The notes beneath the pieces are model-generated. The model had not been told where the DNA came from and ran no database searches. It saw nothing but the letters and a program-made list of their open reading frames with translations. Positions 23,661-31,709 of a DNA stretch of 64,000 nucleotides are shown here, in pieces. Positions within the stretch are counted from its first letter, which is position 1. Each line of letters opens with the position of its first letter. Made by a program: the position numbers and the translations under genes. This DNA comes from Aeropyrum sp. (GTDB lineage Archaea; Thermoproteota; Thermoprotei_A; Sulfolobales; Acidilobaceae): assembly GCA_015523465.1 (NCBI GenBank), contig WAKF01000077.1, forward strand, positions 1 through 64,000, in the 5' to 3' direction.

Positions 23661-26600
23661 CTAGCCTTCCCCGCTTCCCATCCTCTTCCTAGCCTCTTCG
23701 ATTAGGTCCTCTGCCTCCTCTATCAACTTCTTAGCCTCCTCCACTAGCTGTTTAGCCCTCTCAACATCACCGGCCTGAAGAGCTCCCTCAGCCTCTCCAA
23801 GCTTCTGCATGGCGTCAGCGAGCTTCTGCATAGCCTCTTCTAGGAGCTTCTGAGCCTCATGGTCACCCTTCCTCCTAGCATCCCTTAGCAGCTCTCTAGC
23901 CTCCTCCATCAGGCTCTCGGCTTTCTCTCTCAGCTCTTCTATAGTCTTCGTCAGCTCGTCTTCAACAGACTCCTCCAGCGCCTTCTCGGCCTCTTCTATG
24001 ATCTTCTCGGCCTCCTCCACCATAGCCTTAGCCTCCTCCAGCTTCTCCTTAGCCTTCTCGTAGTCACCATTCTCCAATGCGTCCTTAGCCTCTTTCAGAG
24101 CCTCCATAGCCTCCTTTAGAAGGTCCATAGCCTCTCTCAGCCGCTCCGCGATGTCGCTTCTCCCCTTCTCCTCGGCCTTCCTTAGTAGTTCTGCGGCCTT
24201 CTCCATCAACTCCCTAGCCTCTTCCATTAGCTCTTCTATAGCCTTCGCAAGATCCTTTACAGCCTCTTCCAGCCTCATTCTAGCCTCCTCTAAGAGCCTC
24301 TCAGCCTGGTCTAGTAGCTCGTCTGCAGCCTCCACTAGCTGTTTAGCCCTCTCAACATCGCCATCTTCTAGGGCGGCTCTCGCCTCTTCCAAGTTATCTT
24401 CAGCCTTGCCAATAAACTCTAGAGCCTTACTGGCTAGCTCTTCCGCGACGCTGTCGCCAGCGTCCCTCGCAGCCTGTAGGACATCTTCGGCTTCCTTCCT
24501 CAGATTCTCAGCCTTCCTCGACAGCTCCTCGATCTCCTTCTTAACATCCTCAACCCTCTCCCTATGCTCTCTTAAAGCCTCCTCAGCCCTCTCTAGCATG
24601 TCATCCGCCTTCGACACCATCTCCTCGGCAGCGCGGATCATACTCCAAGCCCCGTCATAATCCCCATTCTCAGCGGCTTCCAACGCATCCTCCAGCATCC
24701 CCTCGGCCTCATCGAGCATCTCAACAGCCTTCTCCACGAGCCTCAGAGCCTCCTCAGCACCAGCCTTCTCAGCCTCCTCCCTGATCTCCCCGGCCTTCTC
24801 CCTAAGCTCGCTTATCCTCTCCCTAACCTCCCGAACCTTCTCCTCAACCTCCCTAAGCTTCTCCGCCTCGCTTATCTTCTCTCTAGCCTCCTCAACCAGC
24901 TTCTCCGCCCTGTCTAGGAGCTTCTCCGCCTCTTCGAGAAGCTTCTCCGCCCTCCCCCTATCACCTTCATCAAGGGCCTTAAGAGCCTCCTCTACCAAGC
25001 CTTCTACCTCCTCTAGCGTAGACAGAGCCTCTTCAAGTAGGTCTACGGCCTCGCTAGCACCAGCATTCCTAGCCTCATCTAAGAGCCTCTCAGCCTCGAC
25101 CCGCAGCCTCTCAGCTTCACCCTTAATCTCGGCGGCTTTCCTCTTCAGCCTATCCTTCTCCTCCTCCACCGCCTCCTCAAGCAGATACTTGGCTTTAGCT
25201 AGCATCTTCTTAGCCTCAGCCAGCGCCTTCATAGCCTCCTCCAAGCTCTTAGCCGCAGAGTCTAGGTCGCCAGAGTCTAGGTAAGACGAGGCCTCTTCAG
25301 CCAGGCTAATAGCCTCCTCCGCGAGCCTTACAGCCTCCTCCGCAGCATCCACCGCATCGCTAGCTCCAATCTCCTCGGCCTCGGCCTTCACCTCGAGGGC
25401 TTCACTCCTCACTTCCTCAGCTTCCTCCATAACCTCCCTTATAGCCTCTCTCAGAGCCCCAGCCTTCTCCGCCCTCTCTTCTAACATCATCTCAGCTTCC
25501 TCCATCATCTTGGCAGCCTCCTCGACTAGACTCCTCGCCTCCTCGATGTACCCTCTAGCCACGTCTATAGAGCCCTCCTTCACTGCAGCCTCAGCATTAT
25601 CGAGAACCTCCTCAGCCCTATCCAGCAAGCCTAAGGCCTCTTCCACTAGCCTTTTAACATCGCCGTCAACTCCCTCCTCCTCCAGCTCCTTTAACAAGTC
25701 CTTTGCCTCCTCTCTCAGCTCTCTCACGGCCTCCCTTAGCTCCTCTATAGAGTTTAGGACCTCCTCGGCTTTCTCAGCTTTCACACCCTTAACCTCGATC
25801 TGGGCTGCCAGCACGGCCTCCCTTGCCTCGTCTATGAGGCGGAGAGCCTCTACGGCCTTCTCTAGAGCCTGACTCGTGTTACCATTATCAAGGGCTTGCC
25901 TAGCTTCGTCGAGCAACTGGTTAGCCTGGGACAATGCATCCCTAGCCTCCCGTAGGAGTTCCAGAACCCCCTCATCGCCTAGGTCTCTGGCAGCGGCTTC
26001 CAGCTCCTCTACCTCCTTCAATAGCCTCTCTAGAGCGGCCTCTGCAAACGCTATAACAGGCTCAGGGCTTCCAGCCTCCTCTATGAGACTATACACCTCC
26101 TCTCTAGCCTCCTCAACAAGCACCTCAGCCCTCTCAACTAAACCCTTAGCTTCGCCAACCTTACCCTGAGCTAGGACCTCCAGAGCCGTATCCATCATCT
26201 CAACAGCCTTCTCCAGCTTAGCTAGGGCACCCTGAAGCCTCCCCTTGACATCCTGAGGAGCGTCCTCTAACGCTGTGGAGGCTAGATTCGAGAGTTCTAG
26301 GGCGTAGGTCCTGAGGGCTGCAGCCTTCTCTGATACCTCTATAGCCTCCATTGCAGCGCCCATCCTAGCCTCACGATAGGCTTCTAGTGCAAGCTCGTAA
26401 GCGTCTCTAGCAATGCTATAAGCTTCCCTAGCAAGCTCTAAGGCCTCCCCGGGCCTACCCTCCTCGAGGGCCTTCACCGCCTCCTCTAGGATGGACTTAG
26501 CCCTCTCTAATAAGTTCCTAGCCTCCGTTATGGCCTCAGAAGCCTCCCCGCCCTCTATAACTTCCTCAGCCCTCTTTAACGCCTCGAGGGCCTTCTCAAG

Positions 26601-28052
26601 CATCCTTTGAGCGTCTTTCAGCGCCTTCTCAGCCTTCTTAGTAGAATCTTCGTGGACCTCGACCAGGGCTTTAGCAGACTCGATTAGGTCCTCAGCCAGG
26701 TCTAGAGCCTCCTCAGCATCCTCCACTAGATCCTCTGCATCGTCAATCCTCCCCTCTTCAAGGGCTTTACGTGCTTCCCCAAGCAGGTCTAACGCTTTAT
26801 TAACATATTCTCTAGCCCGCCCTAGAATCTCAACCGCCTCCTCAACGTTCATGTCAGAAGCTGTCCTCTCTAATTCACCTATGAGTTCTTGGAGCCTTGA
26901 AGCCTCAGCCTCCAGCCTGTCAATATCGTCCTGGAGATCTCTTTCTTTGCCTTTCGGGCTCAACATTTCATCTACAGCTTCAACGAGGCTTTCAGCAGCC
27001 CTCACAAGCCCCTGGGCACTACCTACAAGCTTTACAGCCTCCGCGTAACGACCTTCCTCCAGGGCTTCTTCAGCTCTAGCTACGAGCTCTTCAGCCTCGT
27101 TTACGTGTTTCTCAGCCCTCTCTAATAGAGTCTCGGCACCCTTACCCTGGGGCGGGTTCTTAACCAGGATCTCCCTCAAGGCTTCTATCCTCGCCTTTAC
27201 ATCGCTTATCCTAGCCTTAACCTCCTCTATAGCCTCCCTTATACTCGGCGGCAGTGCCTCCTCAGCCTTGCCTGCTGAGCCTCCTTTCACTGCGGTCTCA
27301 GCTACCAGGATGCTAGTCTTAGCAGTCTCCAGAACCGAGATTGCTGTCTCAACGCCTATCAAAGCCTCTTCGGCTCCCTCTTCCTTGAGCTTCTCTCTAA
27401 CCTTCCCTAATACCACTATAGCCTTCTCAACGCTCTCTCTAGCCTTTTCGAGGGCTTCTAGGGCATCGCCTTTAACAGCATGTTCGACTGCAGCCTCGGT
27501 GACGACCTCAGCCGCATCCATCCCCGCCTGAGAAGCTAGTAGGGCCTCTACGCGGGCAAGCTCCTCTAAAGCAGTTAGCGGGTCGCCTTCGGCAGCCTTC
27601 TTTAGAGCCTCAGCTATCCCCCTAAGCTCCGGGATTCCTCGAGACTCTGCAATGGCCTCGAGGACCTTGGCAGCCCTCTGTAGAACCTCGCTTGCTAGTC
27701 TAGTCTTCAGTTCCTCTCCCCTAGTGGACTCTGCAAGAACCTCCCGGACCTTGGCGAGCACCTCTTCTCCCCGGGAGGCTAGGTCTCTAGCTTTCTCGGG
27801 CGGAATTGTAGTGGGGTCGGCGCTTAAGATCTCGTCTACAACAGCCCTCTCGTCCTCGCTAAGGGTTTCTAGAACGTGTGGAGCAGTCTCTACAATGCTC
27901 TTAAACACTCTCTGTAGTACTGCCACCTTGAGAGCGTCAATCCCCACGCTTTCAGGCTCAGACTGTGCTAGGCTGTTCGTCACGGGTAAGGCTAGGTTTA
28001 GTATTAGCATAGCCAGCAGGGCTAAGGCCCAGGCGCTCCGCAGACCGCTCAC
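23661..28052 (-). CDS. Giant secreted helical-repeat (coiled-coil) protein
   Basis: The 1463-residue protein has a signal peptide (SAWALALLAMLILNLALPVTNSLAQ) and then almost nothing but Lys/Glu/Ala/Leu helix. I count about 13 recurring turns of the form L-x-x-GD-x-x-x-A-x-x-LV, for example LEEGRYAEAVKLV, LDEGDRGRAEKLL, LENGDYEKAKEKL and LQAGDVERAKQLV. Alternate turns such as GASEAVDLLEEA and GDHEAQKLLEEA lie between them, so the unit is about 100-110 residues with four helices. I see no cysteine, no C-terminal anchor and no enzyme motif. GTG 28052 follows GGAGGGTGAG and is buried in a hairpin. It faces a membrane regulator gene. A cell-surface spacer, filament or envelope-stabilising role is only a guess. 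Confidence 0.85.
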   Translation of the reverse strand: MSGLRSAWALALLAMLILNLALPVTNSLAQSEPESVGIDALKVAVLQRVFKSIVETAPHVLETLSEDERAVVDEILSADPTTIPPEKARDLASRGEEVLAKVREVLAESTRGEELKTRLASEVLQRAAKVLEAIAESRGIPELRGIAEALKKAAEGDPLTALEELARVEALLASQAGMDAAEVVTEAAVEHAVKGDALEALEKARESVEKAIVVLGKVREKLKEEGAEEALIGVETAISVLETAKTSILVAETAVKGGSAGKAEEALPPSIREAIEEVKARISDVKARIEALREILVKNPPQGKGAETLLERAEKHVNEAEELVARAEEALEEGRYAEAVKLVGSAQGLVRAAESLVEAVDEMLSPKGKERDLQDDIDRLEAEASRLQELIGELERTASDMNVEEAVEILGRAREYVNKALDLLGEARKALEEGRIDDAEDLVEDAEEALDLAEDLIESAKALVEVHEDSTKKAEKALKDAQRMLEKALEALKRAEEVIEGGEASEAITEARNLLERAKSILEEAVKALEEGRPGEALELAREAYSIARDAYELALEAYREARMGAAMEAIEVSEKAAALRTYALELSNLASTALEDAPQDVKGRLQGALAKLEKAVEMMDTALEVLAQGKVGEAKGLVERAEVLVEEAREEVYSLIEEAGSPEPVIAFAEAALERLLKEVEELEAAARDLGDEGVLELLREARDALSQANQLLDEARQALDNGNTSQALEKAVEALRLIDEAREAVLAAQIEVKGVKAEKAEEVLNSIEELREAVRELREEAKDLLKELEEEGVDGDVKRLVEEALGLLDRAEEVLDNAEAAVKEGSIDVARGYIEEARSLVEEAAKMMEEAEMMLEERAEKAGALREAIREVMEEAEEVRSEALEVKAEAEEIGASDAVDAAEEAVRLAEEAISLAEEASSYLDSGDLDSAAKSLEEAMKALAEAKKMLAKAKYLLEEAVEEEKDRLKRKAAEIKGEAERLRVEAERLLDEARNAGASEAVDLLEEALSTLEEVEGLVEEALKALDEGDRGRAEKLLEEAEKLLDRAEKLVEEAREKISEAEKLREVEEKVREVRERISELREKAGEIREEAEKAGAEEALRLVEKAVEMLDEAEGMLEDALEAAENGDYDGAWSMIRAAEEMVSKADDMLERAEEALREHRERVEDVKKEIEELSRKAENLRKEAEDVLQAARDAGDSVAEELASKALEFIGKAEDNLEEARAALEDGDVERAKQLVEAADELLDQAERLLEEARMRLEEAVKDLAKAIEELMEEARELMEKAAELLRKAEEKGRSDIAERLREAMDLLKEAMEALKEAKDALENGDYEKAKEKLEEAKAMVEEAEKIIEEAEKALEESVEDELTKTIEELREKAESLMEEARELLRDARRKGDHEAQKLLEEAMQKLADAMQKLGEAEGALQAGDVERAKQLVEEAKKLIEEAEDLIEEARKRMGSGEG

Positions 28053-28073
28053 CCCGGCTCACCCTCCGGGGTG
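28050..28073 (-). promoter_or_regulatory. mRNA hairpin enclosing the start codon and ribosome site
   Basis: On the minus-strand message CACCCCGG (28073-28066) can pair perfectly with CCGGGGTG (28057-28050). The 8-nt loop AGGGTGAG is part of the GGAGGGTGAG ribosome site, and the GTG start codon lies in the 3' arm of the stem. Such a stem would limit translation of the giant protein unless melted or unfolded. Confidence 0.5.
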
Positions 28074-28118
28074 GTGTGAGGGGGTACCCTCCGCATTAAG
28101 AACCCCCTGGAATGTGGG

Positions 28119-28140
28119 GTGGAACCGTTCCACAGGCCTG
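28119..28140. promoter_or_regulatory. Operator candidate with repeated GGAAC half-sites
   Basis: GTGGAACCGTTCCAC (28119-28133) is a perfect 7-1-7 inverted repeat and is followed by the palindrome CAGGCCTG and another GGAAC. The site lies between the divergent giant-protein and membrane-regulator genes, in the leader downstream of a minus-strand TATATAAC box near 28180. It is a good candidate for binding by the adjacent winged-helix protein. Confidence 0.45.
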
Positions 28141-28253
28141 GAACGCAGAGTAGCCATGTATTCTAGGTGGTCTTCCACGTTATATAGCCATTGTGGTGGG
28201 ACCTCGCTTTTTAACCGGTATATTGGGGGGAGTGGTTTAAACGGGGATCCTCT

Positions 28254-29282
28254 GTGGACGGGTCCGCTTTGAGGTTTGCTGTGGCCGCGCTTGGACTCGC
28301 ATTACTAGCCCTTACTTGGAACGCTGTAGGCGCCTGGGGAGAGGCTATTGGTAGTGCCGAGATTAGTATAGCCTCTGACGGCGTTGTAGAGGTTAAGCTT
28401 GAAGCCTCCGTAACTCCGGGTCTAAACGAGATCCCGCTACCTGTAGAACCCGTGCCAACTACTATACTAGTAGAGATAGACGGTACCATAATACCGCCGC
28501 TCTATGTAGAAGGAGTGTTATACGTGCCTAGCGAGGGCGAGGGTGTGGCCAAGGTGTCTTACATAGCTAAGGTCGAAGTGACTGACGGCATTGTAAGCTT
28601 CAATGTGAACCCTAGCGGCGAGGTAACCCTTATTGTTGACCCCCAGGTGATACTGCTAAGCCTCCCCGAGGGTATCACTGGTTACGACATAGGCAGTAAC
28701 GGGAGCCTAGTGATAAAGTTTACAGGACCGTCAGTCATAAAGTTCACTCTATCACAGGCAGTAACAACACCCCCGCCACCAACGGGTGAAGTAACGACTA
28801 CAGAGGCCACCCAGCAGCAAACTACTATGACCGAAACAGCAACTCCAGGAAGTGAGGGTGAGGGAGAGGAGACAAAAACGCCGCCTCCAAGTCCTACTCC
28901 GCAGCCAGCTACGACACCCACCACGCAAGGTGAGGACGGGAATAGGGGGCTACTAGTCATAGCAGCCCTAGGTGCTCTCTCGCTCCTAGTAGCCGGGGGT
29001 GCTGTATACCTGCTATTAAGGTCTAGAGGTGGTCGCGGCGGTGGGGAGGTTGAAACGGCTATACTAGAGCCGGGGGAGCTCGACCAGACGGATAGAGAGA
29101 TAATAGAGGCTCTCAAGAAGGCTGGCGGCGAGGTCCTACAGTCTGAGTTACAGAGGATGCTAAACATGCCTAAGTCCACTCTCTGGAGGAGGCTTAGGAG
29201 GCTTAGGGAGATGGGGTATATTGACATTGTGAGGGAGGGGAAGACTAATAGGGTTAAGCTTCTCAGGGAGCCGGGGGACTAG
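28254..29282 (+). CDS. Membrane-anchored winged-helix regulator with extracellular domain
   Basis: The 342-residue protein has an N-terminal signal segment (FAVAALGLALLALTW), then a beta-rich outside domain (about 35-165). A Thr/Pro-rich linker of about 60 residues follows, then one membrane span (GLLVIAALGALSLLVAGGAVYLLL), and then a cytoplasmic winged helix (about 275-335: REIIEALKKAGGEVLQSELQRMLNMPKSTLWRRLRRL, wing DIVREGKTNRVKLL). The fold order is that of a one-piece sensor and DNA-binding protein working from the membrane. Both GTG 28254 and TTG 28269 are possible starts after TTTAAAC at 28236. It is divergent from the giant helical-repeat gene, which makes that gene its first candidate target. 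The signal sensed is unknown. Confidence 0.8.
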   Translation: MDGSALRFAVAALGLALLALTWNAVGAWGEAIGSAEISIASDGVVEVKLEASVTPGLNEIPLPVEPVPTTILVEIDGTIIPPLYVEGVLYVPSEGEGVAKVSYIAKVEVTDGIVSFNVNPSGEVTLIVDPQVILLSLPEGITGYDIGSNGSLVIKFTGPSVIKFTLSQAVTTPPPPTGEVTTTEATQQQTTMTETATPGSEGEGEETKTPPPSPTPQPATTPTTQGEDGNRGLLVIAALGALSLLVAGGAVYLLLRSRGGRGGGEVETAILEPGELDQTDREIIEALKKAGGEVLQSELQRMLNMPKSTLWRRLRRLREMGYIDIVREGKTNRVKLLREPGD

Positions 29283-30603: not shown

Positions 30604-31709
30604 CTACCCCCCGACACTCTTTTTCCTCCAGGCCCTCGGATAAACCCCCCTCTCAATTATTATCCTCGATGGCTTAACGGCGATTCCCCTCTTAGCCTCA
30701 AGCATCTCATCCCAGCCTAACTCAGCTACTCCCAGCCCCACCAGCTCGCCCTTAAGGGTTAGCATAGCCACGAGGTCGCCCCGGGAAAAGCCTTCTTCCA
30801 CCGCTGCTACACCAGGGACTGCGAGCTGAGCACCGTGAGCCAGGCTATCTACAGCCGTATCCCTTACCACCACCTTCGGTATGTGGCACACGCTAAGCTC
30901 TCCAGGCACGACCACCCTCCTAAGCATGTCGTCACTCCCCTCCTCCCTCCACCTGTAAATGGCCTCTGCTAGGTCCTGCATACGAACTAGGAGGCCGCTA
31001 TCCTCGCTGAAGGGCCCGGTTCTAGTCCTCCTAAGCTCCCTCATATGCGCTCCAACTCCGAGCACGAGGCCGATGTCCCAGCACAGCTTCCTCATATACG
31101 TGCCAGCGTCGCAGTCAACCCTCAAAATCGCGAACCTCTCGCCATCATACTCAACCAACTCGATCTTATAGACCCTACGGGTCCTAAGCGCCCTCTTAAC
31201 ACTACTCCTCAACGGGGGCCTCTGGTATATCTCCCCTTCAAACTCCCTCAAAACACTCCTAAGCCTATCCTCAGGCACAGGCCTATGCAACTGCATAACA
31301 CACACATACTCCTTAGTGGAGTGCATGACAGTCCCTATAATCCTCGTCATCCTCTCCAGGGCCACGGGGAGTACTCCGGTAACCTTAGGATCACCCCGCC
31401 CCCCGCCCTTGAGGGGTAGGGGGGCTCTAGGGTCCCCCCGTGGCCCGCCCTCTTTAGCCCTAGCATCTTCTTGACCCACGCTACTACTTCGTGGCTGGTT
31501 GGGCCTGGAGGTTTATCTAGTACTATGAGGCCGTACTGGATGTACTTATCTAGGGGTCTCCTCCAGGGTATGTGGCCGTATTTTGGGTCTGTGGGCTCTT
31601 CTACTTTGAAGTGTATCTTCCTCTCGTTCCCGCATATACTCTTAATCTTCTCGATGAACTTGAGCCCCTCGGCCGTAGCATCATATTCCTCTGCCATACC
31701 CGCTCTCAC
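30604..31709 (-). CDS. cbf5: tRNA/rRNA pseudouridine synthase Cbf5, split by an intron
   Basis: The track shows two overlapping ORFs in different frames (30604-31479 and 31347-31709). They are one gene: exon 1 ends ...AGHGGTL and exon 2 begins [12 protein letters not shown], rebuilding the TruB/Cbf5 catalytic motif [14 protein letters not shown]. Removing 35 nt (about 31392-31426) joins exon 1 (31427-31709) to exon 2 (30604-31391) and gives 356 residues. The catalytic Asp95 codon is split by the junction. The domains are an N-terminal archaeal extension, the catalytic domain (about 58-250) and a C-terminal PUA domain ([17 protein letters not shown] to the end). Cbf5 is the catalytic protein of H/ACA guide RNPs. 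Introns in crenarchaeal cbf5 are established knowledge. Confidence 0.92.
31392..31426 (-). other. Archaeal mRNA intron in cbf5 (35 nt, ends approximate)
   Basis: The inserted minus-strand sequence AGCCCCCCTACCCCTCAAGG and onward to CGGGGTG shifts the frame and replaces Asp-Pro-Lys by unrelated residues unless it is removed. A length of 35 nt is the only one that leaves one codon between ACC (Thr) and GAT-CCT (Asp-Pro). It can fold back through CCCCCC/GGGGGG, as expected for a substrate of the tRNA splicing endonuclease. By hand I could not place a perfect bulge-helix-bulge, so the borders may shift by up to about three bases. Confidence 0.8.

Follow-up and report, generated by a model that had tools for sequence, protein, structure and literature searches.

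A divergent gene pair in Aeropyrum, encoding a membrane-anchored winged-helix regulator and a very long secreted helical protein, is kept with a putative operator array across many families of Thermoproteota. The pair, the operator, its register to the promoter and its spread are established here by computation. We propose that the membrane protein is probably a dedicated one-component activator of the adjoining secreted helical envelope protein, with its binding to the operator being a prediction. The locus lies in a 64,000-nucleotide stretch of an Aeropyrum sp. contig (WAKF01000077.1), which we call the window, where the two genes diverge from a 201-bp spacer (28053-28253). A preliminary description of this DNA had reported the two open reading frames, the length of the spacer, the palindrome GTGGAACCGTTCCAC within it and an extra GGAAC, all of which our open reading frame calls and the sequence reproduce.

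The regulator and its secreted neighbour

The regulator gene (28254-29282, forward strand) encodes 342 residues. In the structure model a signal helix (residues 4-26) is followed by an extracytoplasmic beta domain (residues 32-166, 28347-28751, pLDDT ~95), a disordered linker rich in Thr, Pro and Glu (residues 170-232, 28761-28949), a single membrane-spanning helix (residues 233-259, 28950-29030) and a cytoplasmic winged helix (residues 278-336 of the model; HTH_24/DUF7343 at 29079-29261) with the recognition segment PKSTLWRR. The model thus describes a type-I membrane protein with one span besides the signal peptide and a C-terminal winged helix, in agreement with the topology first suggested (beta domain outside, Thr/Pro linker, span, winged helix inside). 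Pfam searches match HTH_24 with an E-value of 1.3e-11 and DUF7343 (PF24034) with 31.4 bits, above the curated cut-off of 27.6; DUF7343 is matched by 12 of 14 family members at E-values up to 0.1. Transmembrane transcription regulators (TTRs) are defined by a single polypeptide that joins a DNA-binding domain to one or more membrane spans; the regulator has both parts, and its orthologues show hydropathy peaks.

Archaeal DUF7343 proteins share the C-terminal winged helix; the outside domain differs here in having no Pfam match, either in the regulator or in the family members. To our knowledge, no target or operator has been described for archaeal proteins ending in DUF7343. In Foldseek the outside domain shows a likeness to the N-terminal beta domain of M1 aminopeptidases/LTA4H (E-value 1e-4, TM-score ~0.25 of the whole query) that is too weak to assign function. 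Of the 229 genomes of the class, 50 contain a profile match to the outside domain.

The neighbouring gene (23661-28052, reverse strand, GTG start) encodes 1463 residues, which the open reading frame, the repeat spacing, a helical model and orthologues together define as a secreted all-helical protein. Its N-terminus forms a signal peptide region (residues 1-30, 27963-28052, with ...NSLA-QSEP resembling a typical cleavage site, cleavage predicted) around its one hydrophobic segment; no second such segment was found in the sequence. Next on the same strand come a conserved non-repeat helical domain (about residues 31-276, 27225-27962), which aligns with shorter partner proteins from other families, and 12 three-helix repeats of ~98-101 residues (23664-27224) that carry a turn motif, (E/D)-x-G-(D/R), near residues 330, 430, 528, 627, 720, 821, 924, 1026, 1126, 1226, 1325 and 1423. 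Residues 31-700 were modelled as all-helical (pLDDT 85), with helices of ~63-64 residues alternating with helices of 28-29 residues in the repeat part. Sequence, model and relatives bear out the secreted helical neighbour of the preliminary description. Its epithet "giant" suits the window protein and does not extend to the family: Aeropyrum congeners span 739-1625 residues through repeat number, partner helical proteins outside the genus have 332-1083, and the large size is, judged from these sequences, a lineage-specific repeat expansion.

Family searches with the giant returned generic coiled-coil matches only in Pfam and NCBIfam, no significant structural match with Foldseek, and in profile searches almost exclusively designed helical bundles. 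It shares ~100-residue repeats and long fused helices with EzrA/spectrin-type three-helix repeat proteins, and its period and helix pattern fit the spectrin-type layout, for which the structural search gave no significant match. The Pfam EzrA model scores 37.8 bits, below its curated cut-off of 39.6, which leaves the giant outside that family, and EzrA is cytoplasmic whereas the giant is secreted. EzrA is matched by 6 of 13 relatives at E-values up to 0.01; the weak EzrA and DUF1771 matches of the giant disappear in shuffled copies, so that heptad order, not composition alone, lies behind them. CpxP/Spy proteins are helical too; neither their LTxxQ motif nor a Pfam match to their family was found in the giant. 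The Sulfolobus S-layer stalk SlaB (PMC6911244) is likewise secreted and has a coiled-coil part that sets the distance from membrane to S-layer, but SlaB is also membrane-anchored and contains beta-sandwich domains, and neither feature was seen in the giant sequence or in the model of residues 31-700. By analogy, the giant may serve as a sub-S-layer rod or spacer, as SlaB does, or as a chaperone-like protein.

Conservation of the pair

The preliminary description was to be abandoned if orthologues in relatives were never neighbours. We made this comparison, and found the divergent pair in 5/5 congeneric genomes and the pairing again, in either orientation, over many families and in a second class of Thermoproteota. 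The two genes diverge in Aeropyrum and in several further families, and run in the same direction in others. Gene calls, start codons, TATA boxes and the class "helical secreted" (secreted, helix-rich, at least 300 residues, no further membrane spans) were set by simple rules of our own; many of the genomes are MAGs, and several start codons in relatives are uncertain.

Among the fetched loci, a helical secreted gene immediately adjoins 25 of 44 regulators that have both outside domain and winged helix, against 14 of 356 control genes (other genes of at least 300 residues, more than two places from the regulator) that fit the same definition; the statistics on the pair, like those on the sites below, ignore kinship, and relatedness inflates their significance. 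Eight of these 14 control genes lie at most two genes from a membrane-bound winged-helix regulator with a below-cut-off outside domain; another four (L157, L165, L173, L177) have next to them, or no more than ~1.4 kb away, a beta-domain match that fails the winged-helix filter. Outside the class, where loci were found by the outside domain alone, each of the 11 close family members adjoins a helical secreted gene, counting two that just miss the numerical definition (L187, L189) and one cut by a contig end (L184); among more distant members (L194-L202) the pairing is mostly absent.

Some regulators have no helical neighbour, and the helical genes L092 and L096 sit apart from the family's regulator within the same genome. 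In several Acidilobaceae, the regulator beside the helical gene has a diverged outside domain.

The operator array and its register

In the window, the putative operator consists of the palindrome GTGGAACCGTTCCAC (28119-28133), a further GGAAC half-site (28140-28144) and a degenerate, promoter-proximal half-site GGAAT (28109-28113) whose slot came from the register analysis described below. The last of these lies 11 bp upstream of TTCTTAAT, the probable TATA-like box of the giant gene (28095-28102, reverse strand), which follows a G-rich BRE-like GGGGG and has a visible counterpart in six Aeropyrum spacers. For the regulator gene, CTTTTTAACC (28207-28216, forward strand) is a putative TATA-like element, and the strand of the giant also carries a strong CTATATAA (28187-28180). 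A scan for bacterial promoters and terminators found nothing. The hairpin that had also been described is present as an 8-bp stem over the giant's start codon (28050-28073, reverse strand; -25 kcal/mol, z -1.5). It is absent from orthologous leaders, so we rejected it as a control element and regard it as probably incidental.

Comparison of the six orthologous Aeropyrum spacers ranks GGAAC/GTTCC first among 5-mers (30 occurrences). The palindrome GGAAC(N0-2)GTTCC is found in 6/6 of these spacers at only 3-6 copies per Aeropyrum genome, which places it beyond chance, and the exact GTGGAACCGTTCCAC occurs once in the 1.80-Mb assembly. We considered a wider regulon through the other palindromes and set it aside: the copies are few, and the two inspected lie inside coding genes, one TBP-like and one for methylmalonyl-CoA mutase. 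Upstream of 35 non-Aeropyrum helical genes, GGAAC is again the most enriched 5-mer (58 against 11.2 expected), with GAAAC second (59 against 16.3). Site enrichment and conservation over many families thus back the claim of an operator in the spacer.

The half-site varies with the recognition segment of the regulator. With expectations computed locus by locus, GGAAC occurs 23 times against 1.9 expected in Aeropyrum loci, whose recognition segments are PKST or PKTT, and 52 times against 10.2 in non-Aeropyrum loci not of PKAT type, whereas PKAT-type loci have 24 GAAAC against 4.3 expected and no GGAAC. Because a tree needs ~2 changes to account for the Ala type, this correlation is suggestive only, and may reflect one or two events. 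The lineages also differ in GC content, and Thr-type regulators pair with either half-site.

Sites upstream of the helical genes keep a fixed distance to the promoter. With starts and TATA boxes picked blind to the sites, these peak, relative to the TATA box, at -14, -23/-24, -34 to -36 and ~-45 and show strong 10.5-11 bp phasing (n = 90); none falls between -11 and -5 in 41 helical genes. A site at -15 to -12 is present in 20/41 helical genes and in 18/919 others. Held-out loci outside the class, treated by the same rules, all have a site at -22 to -25 (11/11), which repeats the phasing; the exact site fills the -15 to -12 slot in 2/11, and most others have degenerate ATTCC-like versions there. 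In archaea, sites upstream of BRE/TATA mark activators and downstream sites mark repressors (PMC4158304). The array has the activator-type arrangement, upstream of BRE/TATA in a fixed register, which points to activation rather than repression.

Proposed mechanism and relation to known systems

From the adjacency of the genes and the weak correlation with the recognition helix, we infer that this regulator binds the array. As an activator, it would cross the membrane a single time, its beta domain sensing on the outside and its winged helix lying in the cytoplasm, and a dimer would bind the phased GGAAC/GTTCC half-sites (GAAAC/GTTTC in some lineages) directly upstream of its neighbour's BRE/TATA. 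Bound regulator would then activate the neighbouring gene, probably by aiding TBP/TFB, and the exported product would form a long helical-bundle rod between membrane and S-layer, with the role of an envelope spacer or of a chaperone-like protein. The helical protein could also act in feedback on the outside domain, in the way that CpxP restrains CpxA; this step is speculative, as are the signal sensed by the outside domain and the task of the helical protein. The surface sensing of the preliminary description finds no support in our analysis; its filament is compatible with the results and likewise unsupported by them.

A palindrome between divergent genes is also the classic layout of self-regulation, and the regulator might instead act from the shared spacer as a repressor of its own gene and the helical one, until an outside signal relieves the repression. 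If the CTATATAA on the giant's strand were used, the palindrome would lie downstream of the start site, in the leader, which favours repression, and in one genome (G003, locus L057) GGAACGTTCC is found also just upstream of TTTTAACA before the regulator. We nevertheless consider repression improbable: the sites of the 41 helical genes gather upstream of the TATA box and leave -11 to -5 free, the array precedes the helical gene in co-directional loci, and archaeal repressor sites typically lie downstream of BRE/TATA (PMC4158304). That the regulator mainly uses the helical product as its cofactor or ligand, in the style of ToxS-ToxR or CpxP-CpxA, with the operator as a feedback loop tuning signalling, is a possibility we lean against. 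The linkage is tight whatever the orientation, a partner protein goes with some of the described membrane-bound regulators (PMC10269533), and cpxP is divergent from cpxRA, its product inhibiting CpxA through the periplasmic domain (PMC6737893). ToxS-like partners are small, however, whereas a rod of 1463 residues whose repeat number varies resembles a product made in bulk, and the operator is kept at some helical genes away from the regulator (L096).

The same locus, where a helical gene has the array and no adjoining regulator, would suit a different, soluble transcription factor acting on the GGAAC array, with the membrane regulator linked for another reason; binding by the regulator is, after all, a prediction. 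We find such a factor quite improbable. A palindrome this close to unique in each genome makes a global factor unlikely, and the half-site type partly follows the recognition helix. Last, unrelated neighbours with operator and hairpin as chance sequence would explain the lack of hairpin conservation and nothing else; the conserved neighbours and sites, together with the enrichment, the register and the held-out loci, refute this reading for practical purposes.

The preliminary description knew of no system with this pair. Since one-component regulators with an HTH in a membrane-bound protein are already known (PMC10269533, PMC6396743), this holds for the pair, the operator and the target, which are undescribed, and not for the type of regulator. 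TTRs such as ToxR (with ToxS) and CadC share the inside DNA-binding domain, the span, the outside domain and sometimes a functional partner (PMC10269533). The Aeropyrum protein differs in its C-terminal winged helix and type-I topology with signal peptide, and in having a long secreted helical protein as partner; the passages of the survey that we searched name neither its outside beta domain nor its target (PMC10269533). ArnR and ArnR1 of Sulfolobus acidocaldarius, two membrane-bound HTH proteins of a crenarchaeon, activate surface-structure genes and bind boxes with inverted repeats (PMC6396743), but they have an N-terminal HTH, a HAMP-like and a sensor domain and two C-terminal spans, and their targets are the archaellum and pili. 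The regulator has neither the N-terminal HTH nor the two C-terminal spans that mark the ArnR family. In the Cpx system (PMC6737893), as here, envelope sensor genes stand divergent to a gene whose secreted product they control; Cpx differs in using a kinase and a response regulator, and CpxP/Spy are small and have no sequence relation to the giant. As analogies, then, ToxR-ToxS and Cpx-CpxP/Spy offer a comparable layout and are not homologous to the Aeropyrum pair.

On a broader reading, which we offer tentatively and think rather unlikely as a whole, the pair would be a widespread envelope-homeostasis circuit of Thermoproteota: the activator would read the sub-S-layer space with its outside beta domain and cause a spectrin-like rod to be made when needed, which would bind that domain and so shut off its own synthesis, with repeat number evolving quickly to fit each species' envelope. 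In the literature we found no description of the pair or of crenarchaeal envelope-stress or envelope-length control of such a type, and none of the expression of the A. pernix locus; we know of no described crenarchaeal system of either sort. A concrete, conserved regulator, operator and target, present in Aeropyrum and many hyperthermophile lineages, make envelope sensing and remodelling in such archaea directly testable, and a promoter array whose TATA register is kept across classes is a useful case for archaeal activation.

Composition of the secreted helical proteins

The helical proteins of Aeropyrum are strongly acidic, with 388 D/E vs 211 K/R residues in the giant (window 23661-28052), and they carry just 0-2 N-glycosylation sequons (the giant included), compared with 9-26 per protein among the non-Aeropyrum partners in the compared set of related loci (L062-L094). 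Partner proteins from three non-Aeropyrum lineages (L062:8885-10516, L064:8383-10686 and L081:8029-9462) end in His-rich C-terminal tails (e.g., HHKEHHEEHHKEHD), a composition that suggests metal binding; these tails are absent from the Aeropyrum versions.

Start-codon stem and split synthase gene

The GTG start of the giant sits in the 3′ arm of a perfect 8-bp stem in the sequence (window 28050-28073, minus strand), and SD-like GGAGGGTGAG lies within the 5′ arm and loop. A counterpart of this stem was looked for in relatives, and none was seen.

A TruB/Cbf5-like pseudouridine synthase is divided between two overlapping ORFs (window 30604-31709, minus strand), and the same split was observed at L057:4773-5901. 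In crenarchaea, an intron is often present in archaeal cbf5 genes.

Possible sensor-only genes and helical genes outside the pair

Two genes (L066:9845-10747 and L095:7057-7959, one of which adjoins a regulator/helical pair) encode an outside beta domain and membrane span, with no winged helix found in searches; they are possibly sensor-only paralogues. Helical genes are also sited elsewhere than the family's regulator within the same genome (L096:6431-8149 and L092:7086-8405). Four phased GGAAC/GTTCC sites, candidate operator half-sites, are retained at the L096 gene, and their position away from the regulator hints at action in trans.
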